From contig SOEU01000007.1 of assembly GCA_021646415.1 (NCBI GenBank), positions 1 to 64,000 on the forward strand: a stretch of 64,000 bases of DNA, in the 5' to 3' direction. This document shows, piece after piece, positions 28,080 through 60,729 of the stretch (its first letter is position 1; each line of letters starts with the position of its first letter). The notes beneath the pieces were generated by a model. That model was not told the DNA's origin and ran no database searches. It was given only the letters and a program-made list of their open reading frames with translations. This stretch comes from Candidatus Brocadia sp. GTDB lineage: Bacteria > Planctomycetota > Brocadiia > Brocadiales > Brocadiaceae. The translations under genes were made by a program, and so were the position numbers.

Positions 28080-29525
28080 TTATTTAGGTGTGGGTGATGG
28101 TGTTGGTGTTCCTTCTTTTGTCTGTATCATTACCCCGACCTCTTTTGTCTCGCCTTCCTCAAGTATTACTTTATACTTCGCGTCTTTATAGCCTTTCTTT
28201 TTTGATTTAATCGTATAAGAATTAGCGTTCAAACCCTTAAATTCAAAATATCCGTTAACATCTGAATATGTTGTTTCTGATGTTTTTACCTTCTCTCCTT
28301 TAAGTCTCAATTTTACCGCGTCAACGTACTGACCATTGCTATCTATTGTATACCCATATATCTTACTGGTAGTCTGGGCTAAATTAAAATCTTCAACCCG
28401 GACAGGGGTATTTCTTCGGTCGTGTGTTCCGTCTCCCAGTTGCCCATTAAAGTTATTTCCCCATGTCCACACTGTCCCGTCTGATCCTACGGCGATAGTG
28501 TGCCACAAACCACCTGCAATAGCCGTGACGATCCCACTAATGCTACTCACCAGCACGGGTTTGTTGCTATCTGTATTCTCTCCATTTCCTAATTGTCCGT
28601 CATAATTACTACCACATACCCATACCGATCCATCTGTTCTTAAACATAGAGTGTGTCCCCCTCCACAGGCAATTGCAACAACGTCTCCAGCCCCAACCAT
28701 TTGTACTGGCACATTACTATCATCGTTAGTTTCGTCCCCCAATTGCCCATAATAGTTATCTCCCCATGTCCACACCGTTCCGTCTGATTTTAAGGCTACT
28801 GTATGGTAATATCCACCCGAAACGGCAATGATGTTAGATAGTCCTATTACCTGTACCGGTGTATTTCGCTCTGTATTGGTTCCGTCTCCTAATTGACCGT
28901 GAATATTATCCCCCCACGTCCAGACTGTACCATCTGATTTTAAAGCTATGGTATGCCAGTATCCACCCGCAACAGCAATTACATTATTAAGCCCATTCAC
29001 CTTAACAGGGGTACTGCTATTGGTCTTGGTGCCGTCTCCCAACTGACCGTAAGTATTATCTCCCCATGTCCATGCAGTTCCATCCGATTTAAGGGCTATC
29101 GTATGATAATATCCTCCCGCAACAGATGTGACATCGTTTATACCGTTTACTTTTATCGGCGTGGTTCTATCCGTAGCGGAATTATCTGCTAACTGTCCAT
29201 AAGTATTGTTCCCCCATGTCCAGACTGTACCGTCAGACCCCAAGGCTACAGAATGCAAGTAACCTCCCGCAATACCAATAATATTATTAAGTCCATCTAC
29301 ATGTACCGGTGTGTTTTGAGTAATCGCAGAACCATCCCCCAATTGGCCATTCCAGTTATCTCCCCATGTCCAAACAGTTCCTATGGATTTCAGGGTTATA
29401 GTGTGATGTCCTCCCGCTGCTATTTGGGGCATAGGCAGGATTGACGCAAATAGCCTGCTTGGTGTAATAACGGACAATGAAAATAAGAGCGCCGAGACAA
29501 TTACTAAAGCTTTTCTGTTGCCCAT
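28080..29525 (-). CDS. Secreted RCC1-repeat protein with carboxypeptidase-regulatory-like domain
   Basis: 481 aa from the ATG at 29525, chosen for GGAGG 7 bases upstream. Signal peptide at 1-26 (to RLFA). About seven RCC1-type blades follow, each with WTWGDNxxGQLGDG, NTPVxVxGLxN and GGxxHTxALKSDGT, closing a beta-propeller. Residues about 360-440 form a CarboxypepD-regulatory-like beta-sandwich (YGYTIDSNGQYVDAVKLRLKG... GYFEFKGLNANSYTIKSKKKGYKDA). The tail is TPTPSPTPK. Possibly extracellular binding or adhesion; no catalytic site seen. It is the largest island cargo gene. Confidence 0.9.
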   Translation of the reverse strand: MGNRKALVIVSALLFSLSVITPSRLFASILPMPQIAAGGHHTITLKSIGTVWTWGDNWNGQLGDGSAITQNTPVHVDGLNNIIGIAGGYLHSVALGSDGTVWTWGNNTYGQLADNSATDRTTPIKVNGINDVTSVAGGYYHTIALKSDGTAWTWGDNTYGQLGDGTKTNSSTPVKVNGLNNVIAVAGGYWHTIALKSDGTVWTWGDNIHGQLGDGTNTERNTPVQVIGLSNIIAVSGGYYHTVALKSDGTVWTWGDNYYGQLGDETNDDSNVPVQMVGAGDVVAIACGGGHTLCLRTDGSVWVCGSNYDGQLGNGENTDSNKPVLVSSISGIVTAIAGGLWHTIAVGSDGTVWTWGNNFNGQLGDGTHDRRNTPVRVEDFNLAQTTSKIYGYTIDSNGQYVDAVKLRLKGEKVKTSETTYSDVNGYFEFKGLNANSYTIKSKKKGYKDAKYKVILEEGETKEVGVMIQTKEGTPTPSPTPK

Positions 29526-33358: not shown

Positions 33359-33387
33359 GTTTATATCCCACACGGTCCAGATAAAAC
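33359..33387 (-). repeat. Solitary CRISPR-like repeat S1
   Basis: 29 bases matching the array repeat with three substitutions plus a changed terminal base. No second repeat follows at one spacer distance, so it is an isolated unit, 4.5 kb from the array. Confidence 0.75.
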
Positions 33388-33393
33388 TTCTGG

Positions 33394-33431
33394 GGTGAAT
33401 CCTCCCCCTATTCCCCTCCAGAGGGGGACAA
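33394..33431. repeat. Palindromic G/C-tract repeat
   Basis: CCCCTC-CA-GAGGGG hairpin (33413-33426) followed by GGACAAAGGGGGAGGG. The same extended sequence, in inverse orientation, lies inside the P1B-ATPase gene at about 58443-58490. Confidence 0.6.
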
Positions 33432-33531
33432 AGGGGGAGGGAAATACAAAATTGGTCGGCGAGTATTGCAAGGGAAAAAGGCGCTGTTGAATGCAGGAAA
33501 TATTGGAGAGAATCTTTAGGACGGGTATGTG

Positions 33532-33684: not shown

Positions 33685-33709
33685 AAAAATATTATATGAT
33701 AAAATCAAT

Positions 33710-33888
33710 ATGAGTCAACGAGTAGATTTAATAATTAGTTGTATCAATGATACCCGCAAGGCTCTTCAAGAAGTAACTGGCTTTTCAAAGTCTCTCAACG
33801 AAATTTGCGGTATGGAACTATTCCATACAAAGCGGGTTTTAATCATGTAAAAAGGCGTTTGATGAATTTGCCAATGCAGCAGAACGAC
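33710..33888 (+). pseudogene. Frameshifted copy of the ISCINDTRKA family
   Basis: MSQRVDLIISCINDTRKALQ matches the intact paralogue at 35336-35064 (GQRVELIISCINDTRKA). After residue 35 the first frame gives an unrelated tail and stops at 33850. Other frames restore similarity (KFAVWNYSI, then NHVKKAFDEFANAAER), so at least two frameshifts have occurred. The coding similarity runs directly into the CRISPR-like repeat S2. Confidence 0.6.
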
Positions 33889-35088: not shown

Positions 35089-35336
35089 CTAAACCAATAA
35101 AGCTCTTCCACACCGATGCCAATCTTCTGGCTCATTTTGTAGAGGTCATCACCGACACGAGCAGCTTTGAGCACTGCGACATCAAGAACGTGTTGAACAC
35201 GCTGAAATGCGTAAGTTATCGAATGATTCCATGCAGCAAATTTGATCACAACGCTTTGGAAAGACGATGTGACTTCCTGAATTGCCTTGCGTGTGTCATT
35301 GATACAACTAATAATTAATTCTACTCGTTGACCCAT
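35064..35336 (-). CDS. ISCINDTRKA-family hypothetical protein, intact copy
   Basis: 90 aa from the second of two adjacent ATGs. A helical N-terminal half (GQRVELIISCINDTRKAIQE VTSSFQSVVIKFAAWNHSI) and an amphipathic rest (VLDVAVLKAARVGDDLYKMS QKIGIGVEELYW). The C-terminal SFYEPCGM is encoded by a CRISPR-like repeat, so the native C-terminus was probably different. It is divergent from a small membrane-protein gene 27 bases away. A second, broken copy is at 33710. Function unknown. Confidence 0.55.
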   Translation of the reverse strand: MGQRVELIISCINDTRKAIQEVTSSFQSVVIKFAAWNHSITYAFQRVQHVLDVAVLKAARVGDDLYKMSQKIGIGVEELYWFSFYEPCGM

Positions 35337-35362
35337 CAATATTTTTTTGTTATTGTTTTGAC

Positions 35363-37893: not shown

Positions 37894-38443
37894 ATTTATA
37901 TCCCACATGGTTCAGATAAAACTAAAAGTTGGGGAAAGCGGTGCTGGTGACTTTATACTCTTTATATCCCACATGGTTCAGATAAAACATACAGAAAGTG
38001 TTCTTGCGCTTGCGGCAATTGTGCCTTTATATCCCACATGGTTCAGATAAAACTCTTTTAGATGTACAATCGCGAGGAACGCTGAACTTCTTTATATCCC
38101 ACATGGTTCAGATAAAACCTTCCTGGATAGATTCCTCCTGGGGACGCAGAAACACCTTTATATCCCACATGGTTCAGATAAAACATAGAGTTTATTGATT
38201 ATCTCAAAGATTATGTAATCTTTATATCCCACATGGTTCAGATAAAACGGAATCACATCCAACACCAACGCCAACATCAACGGGCTTTATATCCCACATG
38301 GTTCAGATAAAACGGCACGACAAGACATTTCAATCCACTTCACCATCGGCTTTATATCCCACATGGTTCAGATAAAACGGGGGGCACGGGTGAACAGGGA
38401 TCGCATTTTCAAGCCTTTATATCCCACATGGTTCAGATAAAAC
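37894..38443 (-). CRISPR. Type I-B CRISPR array: nine repeats, eight spacers
   Basis: 29-base repeats at 37894, 37960, 38025, 38090, 38156, 38220, 38285, 38350 and 38415. On the minus strand each begins GTTTTATCTGAACC and ends GTGGGATATAAAG. Spacers are 35-37 bases and all different. Eight repeats are identical; the leftmost has its terminal base changed, as expected at the trailer end. The leader is therefore on the cas2 side (38444-38651) and the newest spacer is 38379-38414. I found no spacer matching elsewhere in the window by eye. Confidence 0.97.
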
Positions 38444-38651
38444 CCCGCCATTTAAAAACAATAAAAATGGCTTTAAATTCGCTTCTTAAATTATCTTAAG
38501 CTTTGCTGGCCGTTGATTACAAACCATCGAAAATCAATATTTTTGCATCAAACCCCGAATCATGTTCTTGAATTTTTTCATAATTTATCTATAACTCTCT
38601 GTCGTAAATACACTTCATGAGTACACGCCAAAAACACCGGTTCGATGCAAA
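38444..38651 (-). promoter_or_regulatory. CRISPR leader
   Basis: 208 AT-rich bases between the first repeat and the cas2 stop, without a gene. GCCATTT and AAATGGC form an inverted repeat beginning four bases from the repeat. The leader should contain the array promoter and the integration signal for Cas1-Cas2. Confidence 0.65.
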
Positions 38652-39989: not shown

Positions 39990-40068
39990 GTTATTCTCAG
40001 AAATATGTATTTGGACGCAGATGAACACAGTGTGGCAGAGCCACAACCGAAAAAAACCACCCCTCTTT

Positions 40069-40089
40069 CCCCTCCTTCGCAAGGAGGGG
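40069..40089. repeat. CCCCTCCTT-CGC-AAGGAGGGG palindrome
   Basis: Perfect 9 bp stem in the cas4-cas1 gap. A related shorter unit follows at about 40130, and a TTCGACAAGCC/GTCGAACG-type inverted sequence at 40160-40215. Dispersed intergenic repeats. Confidence 0.65.
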
Positions 40090-40297
40090 ATGAAGGGGAG
40101 GTAAAGTATCAAAAAACCCTTCCGATTTCTCCTTCGCAAGGAGGAGACTTCGTCGTGATGGTTCGACAAGCCTTCGGCGTGAGCTCAGTCGAACGCTCAC
40201 CATGCACGACGTTACACCCTTAGCCTGTCGAACGATGAAGGGGAGGTAACACAAGTTATACAAAACTGTCTCAAATATTTCTTATTAAGCTACGCCG

Positions 40298-48126: not shown

Positions 48127-48148
48127 ATAAATTCTCTTGTTTAAATCA

Positions 48149-48203
48149 GGCACGGACAAACGAGTTTGTCATTTGACTGAGCGCTCACGACGAAGTCCGT
48201 GCC
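48149..48203. repeat. GACAAAC-GA-GTTTGTC palindrome in a larger inverted repeat
   Basis: GGCACGGAC (48149) pairs with GTCCGTGCC (48195-48203); inside, GACAAAC-GA-GTTTGTC (48155-48170) is a perfect hairpin. The same inner palindrome recurs at 60711-60726. Confidence 0.7.
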
Positions 48204-57446: not shown

Positions 57447-57789
57447 GATTGATCCCCCTGTTCATTTTAGGTAAGCTGCCAAAGGCAGCGGCTTTTCATG
57501 TCCCCTCTAAAAAGAGGGGTCGGGGGTGTGTTCCAGCAAACTTTCACACCCTTGTATCGTTCGACTGAGCTCACGACGAAGACTCACAACGAAGCCTGCG
57601 CAAACCCATCCCCGAACCTATCGGGGAATGGCGCAACCTTTTTAGGTTGCAGCTACCCTATATCTTGAAAACTGCGTAAATAAAATAAATATTCCTATAC
57701 ATTTAAATTAGGCATTCGGCTGCTTTTCAATGGAGAGCGAAGAGTCTCTTCGCTCTACAACCGCACTTTTGAAATTCCTTAACGTTTTA
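57447..57789. other. Repeat-containing gap before the CzcB-like gene
   Basis: 343 bases without a gene. It contains a CCCCTCT-AAAA-AGAGGGG hairpin (57502-57519), a TTCGACTGAGCTCACGACGAAG repeat-type segment (57560-57600) and a TTTTTAGGTTGCAGCTACC segment also hinted near 52180. The czcB promoter, if separate, is not recognisable. Confidence 0.5.
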
Positions 57790-59994
57790 TTACCTCAAAA
57801 GTCTCAGTCCGTTCGCTATAACAATTAATCCGCCTATCTCGTTAATCAGGAGCCCGGGTACAAGACCAATCCAACCACAAAGGGCTACTGGTACCAGAAA
57901 GGCAATGATAAGGAGAGAAATAACGATATTTTGTCGGATAATCTTCACAGCCCTTCGACTCAGTTTGATTATATAAGGAACCTTTGCCAGATCATCTGAC
58001 ATAAGGACAAAATCACTGGTCTCGATGGCTATATCAGTGCCAGCGGCCCCCATAGCAATCCCTGCATCTGATTCTGCCATGGCGGGGGCATCGTTGACAC
58101 CGTCTCCCACCATAGCAATGCAATGATATTTTTCCTTTAGTTTCTTCACGGTTTCCACCTTATCTTCCGGAAGCAATTTAGCATAAAATTCATCGATTTC
58201 AGTTTCTCTGGCAATTTCAGCGGCTGTTCCCTCGTTATCGCCCGTCAGCATGATAACCCTTTCGATTCCCTCATGCTTTAAGGTCTGAACGACATTTTTG
58301 GCCTCCACCCTGACCCTATCAGCTACCGCAATAATTCCCAGGAGTTCCTTTTCAGAGCCCAATAATATAACTGTTTTCCCTTGATTCTCTAACTCAGAGA
58401 TTTGAGCAAGGATTTTGTCTGTTTTTTGCGGGTTTTTTACTACCCCTGTTTCCCCTCCCCCTTTGTCCCCCTCATAGAGGGGGATAGAGGAGGAGGTGAA
58501 TTCGTTGTAGCCTGCTGCGTTAGGAGTTAAAAATTGCAAGAAGAGGCGTTTGCTACCAATAAAATATTCACAGTTACCTATTTTTGCCTTTGCACCCATC
58601 CCTAGCAAGGACTCAAATGCATCTACCATCTGAAGATGTAATCCCCTTTCCTTTGCATGACTTACAATAGTCTCTCCAAGGGGATGCTCGGAACGGCTTT
58701 CGATACTGGCAGCCAGTTGTAGTATTTTTTCTTTTGTCTGATTATTCAAAGGTATGATATCAATAACAGAAGGTTTACCAATGGTAACAGTTCCGGTTTT
58801 ATCAAAGGCGATGGCCTTCAGTTTTGCTGCAATCTCGAGAAATACTCCACCCTTTACCAATATGCCATGCCGAGCCGCATTCCCAATAGCTGCAACTATT
58901 GTAACCGGAACCGAGAGGGCAATACCACAAGAACACGACACAACCAAAACCACGAGTCCCCTATAGAACCAGTAAGAAAATCCTACCCACAGCAAGGGAG
59001 GAACTACCGCCACAACGAAGGCCAGGGCAAACATTACAGGGGTATAATATTTTCCAAACTTTTCGCCAAAGCGCTGATAGCTGGATTTTCTTGCCTGGGC
59101 CTCTTCTACTGAATGAATAATCTTCGCAAGGGTGGTATCCTTCGATAATTTCGTTACCATCACTTCCAGGACACCCCTTTGATTTAGTGTACCTGCAAAG
59201 ACATCATCTCCCTCCTTCTTTTCTACAGGGATCGATTCACCGGTAATGGGAGATTGATCGATGCCGGAGTAGCCTTTTATTATCTTTCCATCCAGGGGTA
59301 TTTTTTCAGCTGGCCGTATGATGATACTGTCAGAGATTTCTACCTCTTCTACGGGCAAAATCATTTCCTTCCCATCTCTCCTGACCAGCGCTTCTTTTGG
59401 TGTCAGTTCCATGAGCATCCGTATAGCACCCCTTGATTTGCTTACGGTATAGATTTCTAAGACGTCGCCCAACAGGTATATAAAGACCAGCATGGAAGCC
59501 TCCTCCCATAATCCGAGCGCTACAGCCCCAATAGCCCCAGTAACCATTAAGGTTCGGATATTGAGGGTCAGTGTCTTTAAGGCGTTGAATGCCATCTTTG
59601 CAGGATAATAACCACCAATAACAATGGCCAAACTGTGAAGGATAATAGTTATCATCCCCTTCCATTCAAGTTTTTCCAATACAAAGGCTACTAAGGTAAA
59701 AAGGCCGCACGCTGAAAGGGCTATAATCCTCTTCTCCTTCCACCAGGTGATTTTTGCCATGGCTTCCCTAACAACCGATGCCTTCATCCCCGTTTCAGCA
59801 ACACTCTTGATGATTTGCTGTATCGAAATTAATGAAGGGTCATAAATGACTTTTACGCCCTGAGTGGCAAGATAAATCTGGAAGTCTTTTATGCCAGCAA
59901 GGGATCTTAACTTCTTTTCGATGATATTTACCTCATCCTGACAATCCATTCCCTCAACAATCAGTTTATAGGTTTCAACTATATCTTCTGTCAT
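57790..59994 (-). CDS. P1B-type heavy-metal ATPase with CSC in place of CPC
   Basis: 734 aa from the ATG at 59994, whose ATGA overlaps the stop of the upstream lipoprotein gene. N-terminal HMA domain with GMDCQDE (one Cys only). P1B core: SPITGESIPVEK, phosphorylation DKTGTVTIGK, SEHPLGE (His-Pro), MLTGDN, and VGDGVNDAPAMA. The membrane metal motif is CSC (residues 354-356, VVSCSCGIALSVP) where CPC is normal. Residues about 498-518 (FTSSSIPLYEGDKGGGETGV) come from an in-frame palindromic repeat. Most likely a Zn/Cd/Pb exporter, but the altered motif makes specificity and even activity uncertain. Confidence 0.88.
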   Translation of the reverse strand: MTEDIVETYKLIVEGMDCQDEVNIIEKKLRSLAGIKDFQIYLATQGVKVIYDPSLISIQQIIKSVAETGMKASVVREAMAKITWWKEKRIIALSACGLFTLVAFVLEKLEWKGMITIILHSLAIVIGGYYPAKMAFNALKTLTLNIRTLMVTGAIGAVALGLWEEASMLVFIYLLGDVLEIYTVSKSRGAIRMLMELTPKEALVRRDGKEMILPVEEVEISDSIIIRPAEKIPLDGKIIKGYSGIDQSPITGESIPVEKKEGDDVFAGTLNQRGVLEVMVTKLSKDTTLAKIIHSVEEAQARKSSYQRFGEKFGKYYTPVMFALAFVVAVVPPLLWVGFSYWFYRGLVVLVVSCSCGIALSVPVTIVAAIGNAARHGILVKGGVFLEIAAKLKAIAFDKTGTVTIGKPSVIDIIPLNNQTKEKILQLAASIESRSEHPLGETIVSHAKERGLHLQMVDAFESLLGMGAKAKIGNCEYFIGSKRLFLQFLTPNAAGYNEFTSSSIPLYEGDKGGGETGVVKNPQKTDKILAQISELENQGKTVILLGSEKELLGIIAVADRVRVEAKNVVQTLKHEGIERVIMLTGDNEGTAAEIARETEIDEFYAKLLPEDKVETVKKLKEKYHCIAMVGDGVNDAPAMAESDAGIAMGAAGTDIAIETSDFVLMSDDLAKVPYIIKLSRRAVKIIRQNIVISLLIIAFLVPVALCGWIGLVPGLLINEIGGLIVIANGLRLLR
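58466..58484. repeat. Palindromic repeat lying in frame inside the P1B-ATPase gene
   Basis: CCCCCTC-ATA-GAGGGGG hairpin within an approximately 48-base repeat (58443-58490) that recurs, inverted, at 33394-33431 between genes. It adds about 16-20 residues to the ATP-binding domain without breaking the frame. Confidence 0.7.
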
Positions 59995-60599
59995 TGTTCT
60001 ACACTCCAAATGGGGTAGTCACGCTTAAGTATCTTGGCCACGGCCAGACATTTTCTCAATTCCTTTGCAATTCTTTCAGAGGTGATAGGTGCATTTCTGA
60101 TCGATCTGATTTTAGTTGGGGTTGTGAATACATCTTCAGAACCTTTTATGACCTCGAAAGAAGATGTTACGTCCTTTCCAATAAATTGTTCAATGAAATC
60201 GTTATCGATAACAGGATTTCCATCGCGGTCTGCAGGATTTTTAACAATGTGAATTTCTTGGATTGCAATAGTGCGTTCAATATCGACAATAAGTTCAAAG
60301 GGCCCATGCTCTCCCTCACCTCTAACCGGGAACGCCTTTTCTACCTCACTCCGACCGCGTCTTGTAGTCATGGAATAATAGACAACGGTCCTTTCACCTT
60401 CACCAATTTCAATGCCCTGCCGGGTTAATTCATTCATTTGCTGCTCTGATAAATAAACGTGGTGCTTTTCAACCCACAAATAAGGATGTTGCTTTTTTAT
60501 CTCATAAAGCGTCATTTCCTGGCCATGTCCGGCATGTGGAGCTTCTGCACAACCACATGGCAAAGAAACAAACAGTATGCACGCAAACCACTTTTTCAT
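59991..60599 (-). CDS. FMN-binding-domain-like lipoprotein
   Basis: 202 aa. N-terminus MKKWFACILFVSLPCGCAEA PHAGHGQ is a signal with a possible lipobox Cys. Residues about 85-190 follow the FMN_bind (RnfG/NosR-like) order: GEGEHGPFELIVDIERTIAI QEIHIVKN, then DFIEQFIGKDVTSSFEVIKG. The usual flavinylation motif (GATxS/T) is replaced by NAPITSERIAKEL, so covalent FMN is unlikely. It is translationally coupled (ATGA) to the metal ATPase, which suggests a partner role in the periplasm. Confidence 0.6.
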   Translation of the reverse strand: MKKWFACILFVSLPCGCAEAPHAGHGQEMTLYEIKKQHPYLWVEKHHVYLSEQQMNELTRQGIEIGEGERTVVYYSMTTRRGRSEVEKAFPVRGEGEHGPFELIVDIERTIAIQEIHIVKNPADRDGNPVIDNDFIEQFIGKDVTSSFEVIKGSEDVFTTPTKIRSIRNAPITSERIAKELRKCLAVAKILKRDYPIWSVEQ

Positions 60600-60707
60600 A
60601 ACGTGCCCTTTCGTTTGATAGATTTTTCGTTTAGGGTAATTTGTAATACGCTAGTTGAACACCCTTGCTTATTCTTACCCGCCATGTTTCGCATAGGGAA
60701 AACAAGC

Positions 60708-60729
60708 ACAGACAAACGAGTTTGTCTGT
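60708..60729. repeat. ACAGACAAAC-GA-GTTTGTCTGT palindrome
   Basis: Perfect 10 bp stem between the YnfA-like and lipoprotein genes; shares its core with 48155-48170. Confidence 0.75.

Follow-up and report, generated by a model that had tools for sequence, protein, structure and literature searches.

The arrangement reported here has its nearest described counterpart in the RAYT-REP system, in which a small DNA-processing gene lies between two inverted palindromes, many solo copies of the palindromes exist, and the palindrome type tracks the protein clade, according to the accessible part of the source (cf. PMC2817692). Our loci share these traits, but the partner gene encodes a nuclease of the PF04480 (DUF559) family, not a Y1 (HUH) transposase, and some palindrome copies also lie in frame in genes. 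The GT(A/G)G head directly before the palindrome, which belongs to the REP definition in the accessible part of PMC2817692, was not seen by eye in our palindromes; the outer tags that follow the hairpin on the gene side read, by eye, AGGGGTGGT, AGGGGGTTGT, AGGGGTGTG and AGGGGTGGGTA.

With regard to repeats within genes, the Rickettsia palindromic elements (RPEs) are repeats of 105-146 or about 150 nt, which occur between genes and also in frame in unrelated conserved genes, and for which the accessible parts of PMC10969869 and PMC2229807 name no partner gene. In-frame fusions of intragenic MITE ORFs are called "not unusual" in the accessible part of PMC10969869, which describes RPEs as occurring at unusually high frequency. 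How such small bacterial repeats move was left open by a 2007 review, as far as its accessible text goes (PMC2229807). Another small repeat, BoxC, is listed with 50-56 nt and 22-32 copies in a table in the accessible part of PMC2267715.

DUF559 proteins have appeared in other settings. One DUF559 gene was placed in the EDxHD family (PMC9403480, accessible part), a phage-derived homing endonuclease family in which the target of I-Bth0305I extends over nearly 60 bp (PMC3943268, accessible part). VsrA, a Caulobacter DUF559 protein, is required for the SOS response in cells without cytosine methylase (PMC12907096, accessible part), and recombination hotspots of Legionella include repeated segments that combine a transposase with a DUF559 gene (PMC12308824, accessible part). 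A link of DUF559 to palindromic repeats, or cutting at palindromes, was not found in our literature search, which most subscription papers lay outside.

Results

An in-frame palindromic insert in a P-type ATPase

The window, meaning the whole stretch of 64,000 nucleotides analysed here, comes from Candidatus Brocadia sp. (contig SOEU01000007.1, positions 1 to 64,000), and its features are collected in Table 1. The ATPase ORF matches E1-E2_ATPase, Hydrolase and HMA of Pfam and TIGR01525 of NCBIfam, and the nearest named relatives found for its protein are from anammox-type MAGs, Ca. Brocadia sp. AMX1 (83%) and RIFCSPLOWO2_12_38_17 (81%). The protein includes SSSIPLYEGDKGGGETG, which is encoded by an imperfect palindrome. 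A preliminary description of this DNA had put the insert at 16-20 residues, but comparison with homologues lengthens it to about 33 residues, or 99 nt in the window, spanning the palindrome plus flanks beyond it. By eye, neither target duplication nor TIRs were seen in the junction sequences.

Table 1. Positions of the ATPase, its insert and other repeats and ORFs in the window.
Feature	Position	Strand	Basis or remark
Heavy-metal P-type ATPase ORF, insert carrier	57790-60009	-	739 aa; ORF list, Pfam, NCBIfam
In-frame insert, ~33 residues (497-529)	~58423-58521	-	tblastn breaks near residues 496 and 530; alignments
Imperfect palindrome within ATPase insert	58443-58490		hairpin TCCCCCTCATAGAGGGGGA at 58466-58484
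Twin palindrome, opposite orientation	33394-33441		directly after CRISPR-like repeat at 33360
Subtype A palindrome	40050-40105		very similar to the element that G031 (L062) carries at the ATPase insert site
Solo subtype F palindrome CCCCTCTAAAAAGAGGGG	57502-57519		between ATPase and neighbour gene
CRISPR-like array	37895-38463		repeat ~TTTATATCCCACATGGTTCAGATAAAAC, 64-66 nt spacing
Scattered single CRISPR-like repeats	33360, 33890, 35062, 35859
Inverted repeat, 77 nt	33701-33777 and 35269-35345		83% complementary, 1.5 kb apart
Tandem repeats	28399-29407		150-nt period
ORF of 133 aa	55480-55881		between two efflux genes; presumably a four-helix-bundle protein of rRNA intervening-sequence type
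Repeat with inner palindrome GACAAACGAGTTTGTC	48143-48170 and 60699-60726		the TIR element (see text) has a similar stretch, GTTTGTCYGTG, close to its left end

The domain borders of P-type ATPases place the insert in the nucleotide-binding domain. In the AlphaFold2 model (mean pLDDT 72.9), residues 496-528 appear as a loop with pLDDT <50 between two helices, and residues 391 to 490 fall in blocks mostly above 80. The insert is thus modelled as a disordered loop with no larger fold; the idea that it enlarges the nucleotide-binding domain holds for its position, on generally known borders, but what is added there seems to be disordered.

Among 21 distinct homologues covering the region, the insert was present in only three, all from Brocadiaceae (those of the window, of Brocadia AMX1 (L052) and of G031 (L062)), and no insert of any kind was present in the other 18, which were seven other Brocadiaceae proteins and 11 from other families. 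In this count, L057, L058, L059 and L064 repeat other records and were counted once, L052 being treated as the same record as L057, and L055 stops short of the region. The comparison of orthologues, which the preliminary description had proposed, therefore gave no sign of conservation in distant proteins (insert missing in 11/11 from outside the family). The extra DNA at the site measures 99 nt in the window, 120 nt in AMX1 and 87 nt in G031, and its palindrome type differs: subtype A (CCTTCGCAAGG core) in G031 and a CCCCCTC/GAGGGGG core in the window and AMX1. The left-flank piece CCTRRCGCAGC has a single further occurrence within 400 kb of contig C1 of the window's genome, again next to a palindrome (C1:174597). 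In the ATPase tree, from which the insert columns were excluded, the three carriers share one side of a branch that has 79/92 support and is not starred; this topology allows a single origin of the insert, though it does not prove one.

Copies of the palindrome in the window and the genome

The 20-mer CCTCCCCCTTTGTCCCCCTC at 58454-58473 (+) has a mismatch-free copy at 33421-33440 (-), and complementarity between the 24-nt arms at 33421-33444 and 58450-58473 is 96%. This bears out the earlier observation that the palindromic repeat in frame in the ATPase is also present between genes; the test used found no ORF of at least 90 aa across the copy at 33394. The first 19 letters of CCTCCCCCTTTGTCCCCCTC have three matches in the window at up to three mismatches, one being the palindrome's own second arm, against none in 100 dinucleotide-preserving shuffles of the window. 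Throughout the genome the 20-mer matches 20 places at up to three mismatches, a count partly due to low complexity since the reversed control pattern also matches 10; relaxing the pattern to TCCCC-N6..24-GGGGA gives 273 matches per strand versus 104 for its control.

In the first 400 kb of C1 we counted 52 strong palindromes, compared with 4-11 in five Markov copies. ORFs picked greedily cover 84% of this stretch but hold 21 of the 52; coding sequence is therefore under-used by the palindromes, yet it is used. Those outside ORFs have 3.68 of six frames open versus 2.45 for the intergenic background (coding background, 3.28), a high count that stems partly from G+C content alone. The palindromes form a superfamily with C-runs and G-runs, consisting of an inner hairpin and an outer tag and falling into several subtypes. 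A long intergenic element resolves into a C hairpin adjoining an E hairpin, and the core of CCCCTCTAAAAAGAGGGG also flanks a DUF559 gene at C1:122k.

A larger mobile element with inverted ends CATGCGTGTTAAGTTAAG / CTTAACTTAACACGTATG was also observed, at C1:174782, 252951 and 169707 and at locus L135. It contains a pair of E palindromes, its direct repeats are of about 10 nt (e.g. GGATAAAGGG), and the copy at 174782 is located in a palindrome arm.

Other in-frame copies

By reading, the 21 palindromes located in ORFs were sorted into 13 family-like copies in five host ORFs, three in DUF559 ORFs and five stretches of ordinary coding sequence. The hosts are the type III methylase Mod (four copies), a PDZ-domain protein (three), the restriction subunit Res (two), TruD (two) and a 453-aa ORF without Pfam hit (two). 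These five further ORFs, together with the MITE review in its accessible part (PMC10969869), make the earlier statement that in-frame colonisation is rare elsewhere too strong. Mod and Res belong to a type III Mod - DUF559 - Res region (C1:30851-36365), and the palindromes in frame in both are G-like.

Homologues were compared for the ATPase, for TruD alone among the five hosts, and for a PglX-like gene. Of 13 aligned TruD sequences, 4 lack the region at about residues 316-370, and in several others its filler no longer looks palindromic; this case is weaker than that of the ATPase because the TruD loops are partly degraded. In Pseudanabaena galeata, a whole palindrome-DUF559-palindrome unit lies in frame within a PglX-like methylase gene (the host is annotated as a DUF559 protein, and the PglX-like name rests on weak matches to annotated PglX). 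Two stretches, residues 1-218 and 420-582, align with the homologue of Aulosira laxa at 62-63% identity; in place of the 201 residues that separate them in P. galeata, this homologue has 11, and it carries neither the DUF559 gene nor the palindromes. This is the one pair with and without the whole unit, known from sequence only.

In-frame presence with absence in homologues, as described for RPEs, was thus found in the ATPase, in TruD and in the PglX-like gene. The comparison with Rickettsia made in the preliminary description is borne out as to in-frame insertion, while the likeness itself is an analogy drawn from descriptions of RPEs. Judged by these descriptions, the DUF559-linked C-run/G-run palindromes are unlike RPEs in occurring in several phyla and in having a candidate partner gene.

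DUF559 genes between inverted palindromes

Clusters of palindromes held DUF559 genes, and therefore the genome was searched with PF04480, which matched seven places. All six near-full domains have palindromes on both sides (the same subtype twice at five of them, C and E at L115), and the seventh, a partial domain, has one on one side. Matches were found in 32 of 33 Brocadiaceae genomes, at 118 places by our count, of which 76 were examined (the best 73 by E-value and three others, namely G010:C120 and two of the window's genome). They include 66 stand-alone DUF559 genes, 59 of them with both 260-bp flanks present.

Palindromes flank 49 of these 59 genes on both sides and ten on one side; no gene is without them. 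Under a stricter test (loops of at most 14 nt) the numbers are 48, ten and one, and those for flanks shifted outward by 300, 500, 800 and 1000 bp are 0/56, 2/55, 0/55 and 0/51 both-sided and 4, 13, 5 and 5 one-sided. Palindrome density reaches 8.31 per kb in the 100 bp nearest the domain, drops to 0.16 at 300-400 bp and 0.08 at 400-500 bp, and rises again to 0.62 at 500-700 bp and 0.95 at 700-900 bp. In 55/60 upstream and 52/57 downstream palindromes the outer tag is turned towards the gene, so that the two palindromes normally point inward, and the DUF559 loci share with RAYT-REP the gene between two inverted palindromes. On the other hand, nine DUF559 domains with more than 150 aa of extra ORF were both-sided once, one-sided once and without palindromes seven times.

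None of 12 Y1_Tnp loci in the window's genome has such a palindrome within 260 bp, and RAYT was rejected as the partner of the palindromes on this ground. At ATPase loci, 0/24 were both-sided, one having a palindrome upstream only and one downstream only; this control is weak, since many of the ATPase matches stop within the gene.

Palindrome subtype follows DUF559 clade

Six subtypes (A, D, E, F, G and H), assigned by regular expression and eye on one flank or both (one of 66 rows, L165, unlabelled), require five changes on the DUF559 tree, the minimum possible, whereas shuffled labels require 39.6 on average and in none of 200 shuffles as few as five. Subtypes E, G, A, F and H are each set apart by a starred branch; D does not form a single clade and needs three changes. 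Seven genes of the E clade have a 5' palindrome of C type.

Hairpin copy number shows only a weak excess in genomes that have an examined cognate gene over those that have none (one-sided p 0.058 for F, 0.027 for G and 0.188 for E); for G, p is 0.009 after adding two genomes whose unexamined DUF559 places adjoin G hairpins. As 76 of the 118 family places were typed, a genome scored as without a type could still possess it. The one-contig genome G020 has 72 E matches, both strands summed, and one marginal DUF559 match only; G030 has 151 G matches, and its three DUF559 loci are typed D, A and D; AMX1 (G001), which carries the ATPase insert, has as its only DUF559 match a weak one (2.9e-5) in a 531-aa frame.

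The DUF559 protein resembles a homing endonuclease

The DUF559 model (pLDDT 89) matches, by profile and fold, the Neisseria endonuclease-like protein 3hrl, and also 3r3p, the catalytic domain of the homing endonuclease I-Bth0305I (profile E 1.2e-5; Foldseek E 1.1e-4, TM 0.76 by target). DUF559 is thus predicted to be a small nuclease with the EDxHD/Vsr-like fold of I-Bth0305I. It shares the catalytic fold with the EDxHD homing endonucleases, but I-Bth0305I is intron-encoded (3r3p is titled 'mobile intron protein'), and the DUF559 genes are flanked by palindromes instead; Pfam recognised no intron or intein in the hosts examined. The fold and the literature on DUF559 proteins make DNA cutting by them plausible.

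Occurrence outside Brocadiaceae

PF04480 matches occur in 67 of 199 genomes of the phylum. In other planctomycete families, 23 of 24 new loci were tested (L212, with a 1180-aa frame, was left out), and of the 22 with flanks 13 were both-sided, four one-sided and five without palindromes, versus 1/20 and 0/20 both-sided further out. Thirteen loci hand-picked from 38 records of a plasmid collection were both-sided in eight cases (Cyanobacteria 4, Alphaproteobacteria 3, Deinococcota 1), one-sided in four and without palindromes in one, and two controls were both-sided in 0/13 each; the two Gammaproteobacteria in this sample were not both-sided. One DUF559 gene of Sphingomonas lies between sufB and sufC.

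The E. coli gene ycjD also belongs to DUF559, and its 3' end carries an imperfect C-run/G-run palindrome that is probably BoxC; the palindrome test does not fire at this locus. A 91-nt query from the 3' end of ycjD has matches in 5347 of 5426 genomes, at a median of 14 places per genome. If this palindrome is BoxC, the enterobacterial BoxC repeats would resemble ours.

Discussion

Palindromes on both sides of DUF559 genes in several bacterial groups make DUF559 a candidate for spreading them, and we infer that it acts as such, by a mode of cutting and copying set out here conditionally. A copy of a dispersed palindromic element would have entered the ATPase in frame in an ancestor within Brocadiaceae and would have been retained because that frame has no stop and the position is in a loop. 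Each palindrome subtype brackets its own clade of stand-alone DUF559 genes, whose product may recognise its cognate palindromes and cut at them, as duplex, cruciform or single-strand hairpin. Repair of the break could then copy a solo palindrome, or the entire palindrome-DUF559-palindrome unit, to new places including genes, within which only in-frame copies would persist. This account as a whole, a dispersed palindromic element in the ATPase and DUF559 as the agent that spreads cognate palindromes, has in our judgement a little better than an even chance of being right. Its observed parts are the insertion, the palindromes on both sides, the pairing with subtypes, the fold, and one whole unit in frame whose homologue has an empty site. 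Against it count the weak tie between hairpin copy number and cognate gene, the many E copies of G020 and G copies of G030, the ATPase insert in AMX1 despite its weak DUF559 match, the larger element around the E pair at L135, the scatter of subtype D, and the lack, by eye, of a target duplication around the ATPase insert.

DUF559 could be a settler and not the mover because pairs of E palindromes also exist with filler in place of the gene. The palindromes would then be moved by another transposase, or by replication slippage and gene conversion, and DUF559 would be a homing-type parasite that settles in an existing inverted pair, its target. Inverted pairs without a gene recur among the matches listed, by eye (E +/- about 200 nt apart, F +/- about 56 nt apart, G -/+ about 28 nt apart), and solo palindromes are numerous in genomes without an examined cognate DUF559 gene. 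Between its E palindromes, the TIR-bounded element has a DUF559 gene at L135 and 150-176 nt of filler in the three C1 copies. The inverted ends of this larger element at L135 are of about 18 nt, and three of the four copies have direct repeats of about 10 nt by eye; another enzyme could be the mover there. The Legionella hotspot segments, with their transposase beside a DUF559 gene (PMC12308824, accessible part), fit as well. Against this stand the close pairing of palindrome subtype with DUF559 clade, the normally inward-pointing pair, and the whole unit in frame in P. galeata whose A. laxa homologue has neither gene nor palindromes; moreover, the Y1 transposase, the sole other enzyme tested, has none of these palindromes beside any of its 12 loci. 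We consider settling by DUF559 possible but rather unlikely.

Ordinary growth of a low-complexity GC-rich loop, with no mobile repeat involved, is a very improbable source of the ATPase insert: C-run/G-run sequence is indeed of low complexity, and the reversed control pattern has its 10 places, but such growth would not be expected to yield the exact 20-nt twin at 33421-33440, a palindromic structure maintained though its type differs between homologues, the CCTRRCGCAGC flank recurring in 400 kb of C1 just once and beside another palindrome, or the clean absence from relatives. Hairpins near gene ends are often terminators, but terminators or regulatory hairpins of the DUF559 genes themselves, an even fainter prospect, would hardly flank the genes mostly from both sides in inward orientation, recur elsewhere as numerous solo copies, in-frame ones included, and be absent around Y1_Tnp genes.

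If DUF559 does spread its cognate palindromes, the stand-alone DUF559 proteins might form a second, RAYT-independent class of enzymes that spread palindromes in many phyla, possibly including BoxC via YcjD, with in-frame host peptides as a by-product; we see the chances of this wider proposal as evenly balanced. The link between DUF559 and palindromes lies outside the window and is a larger result than the ATPase insert itself. A common nuclease family of little-known role and subtype-matched palindromes in several phyla provide a direct and testable candidate for the spread of such repeats. If true, this would give a function to a widespread DUF and account for odd low-complexity inserts in conserved enzymes.
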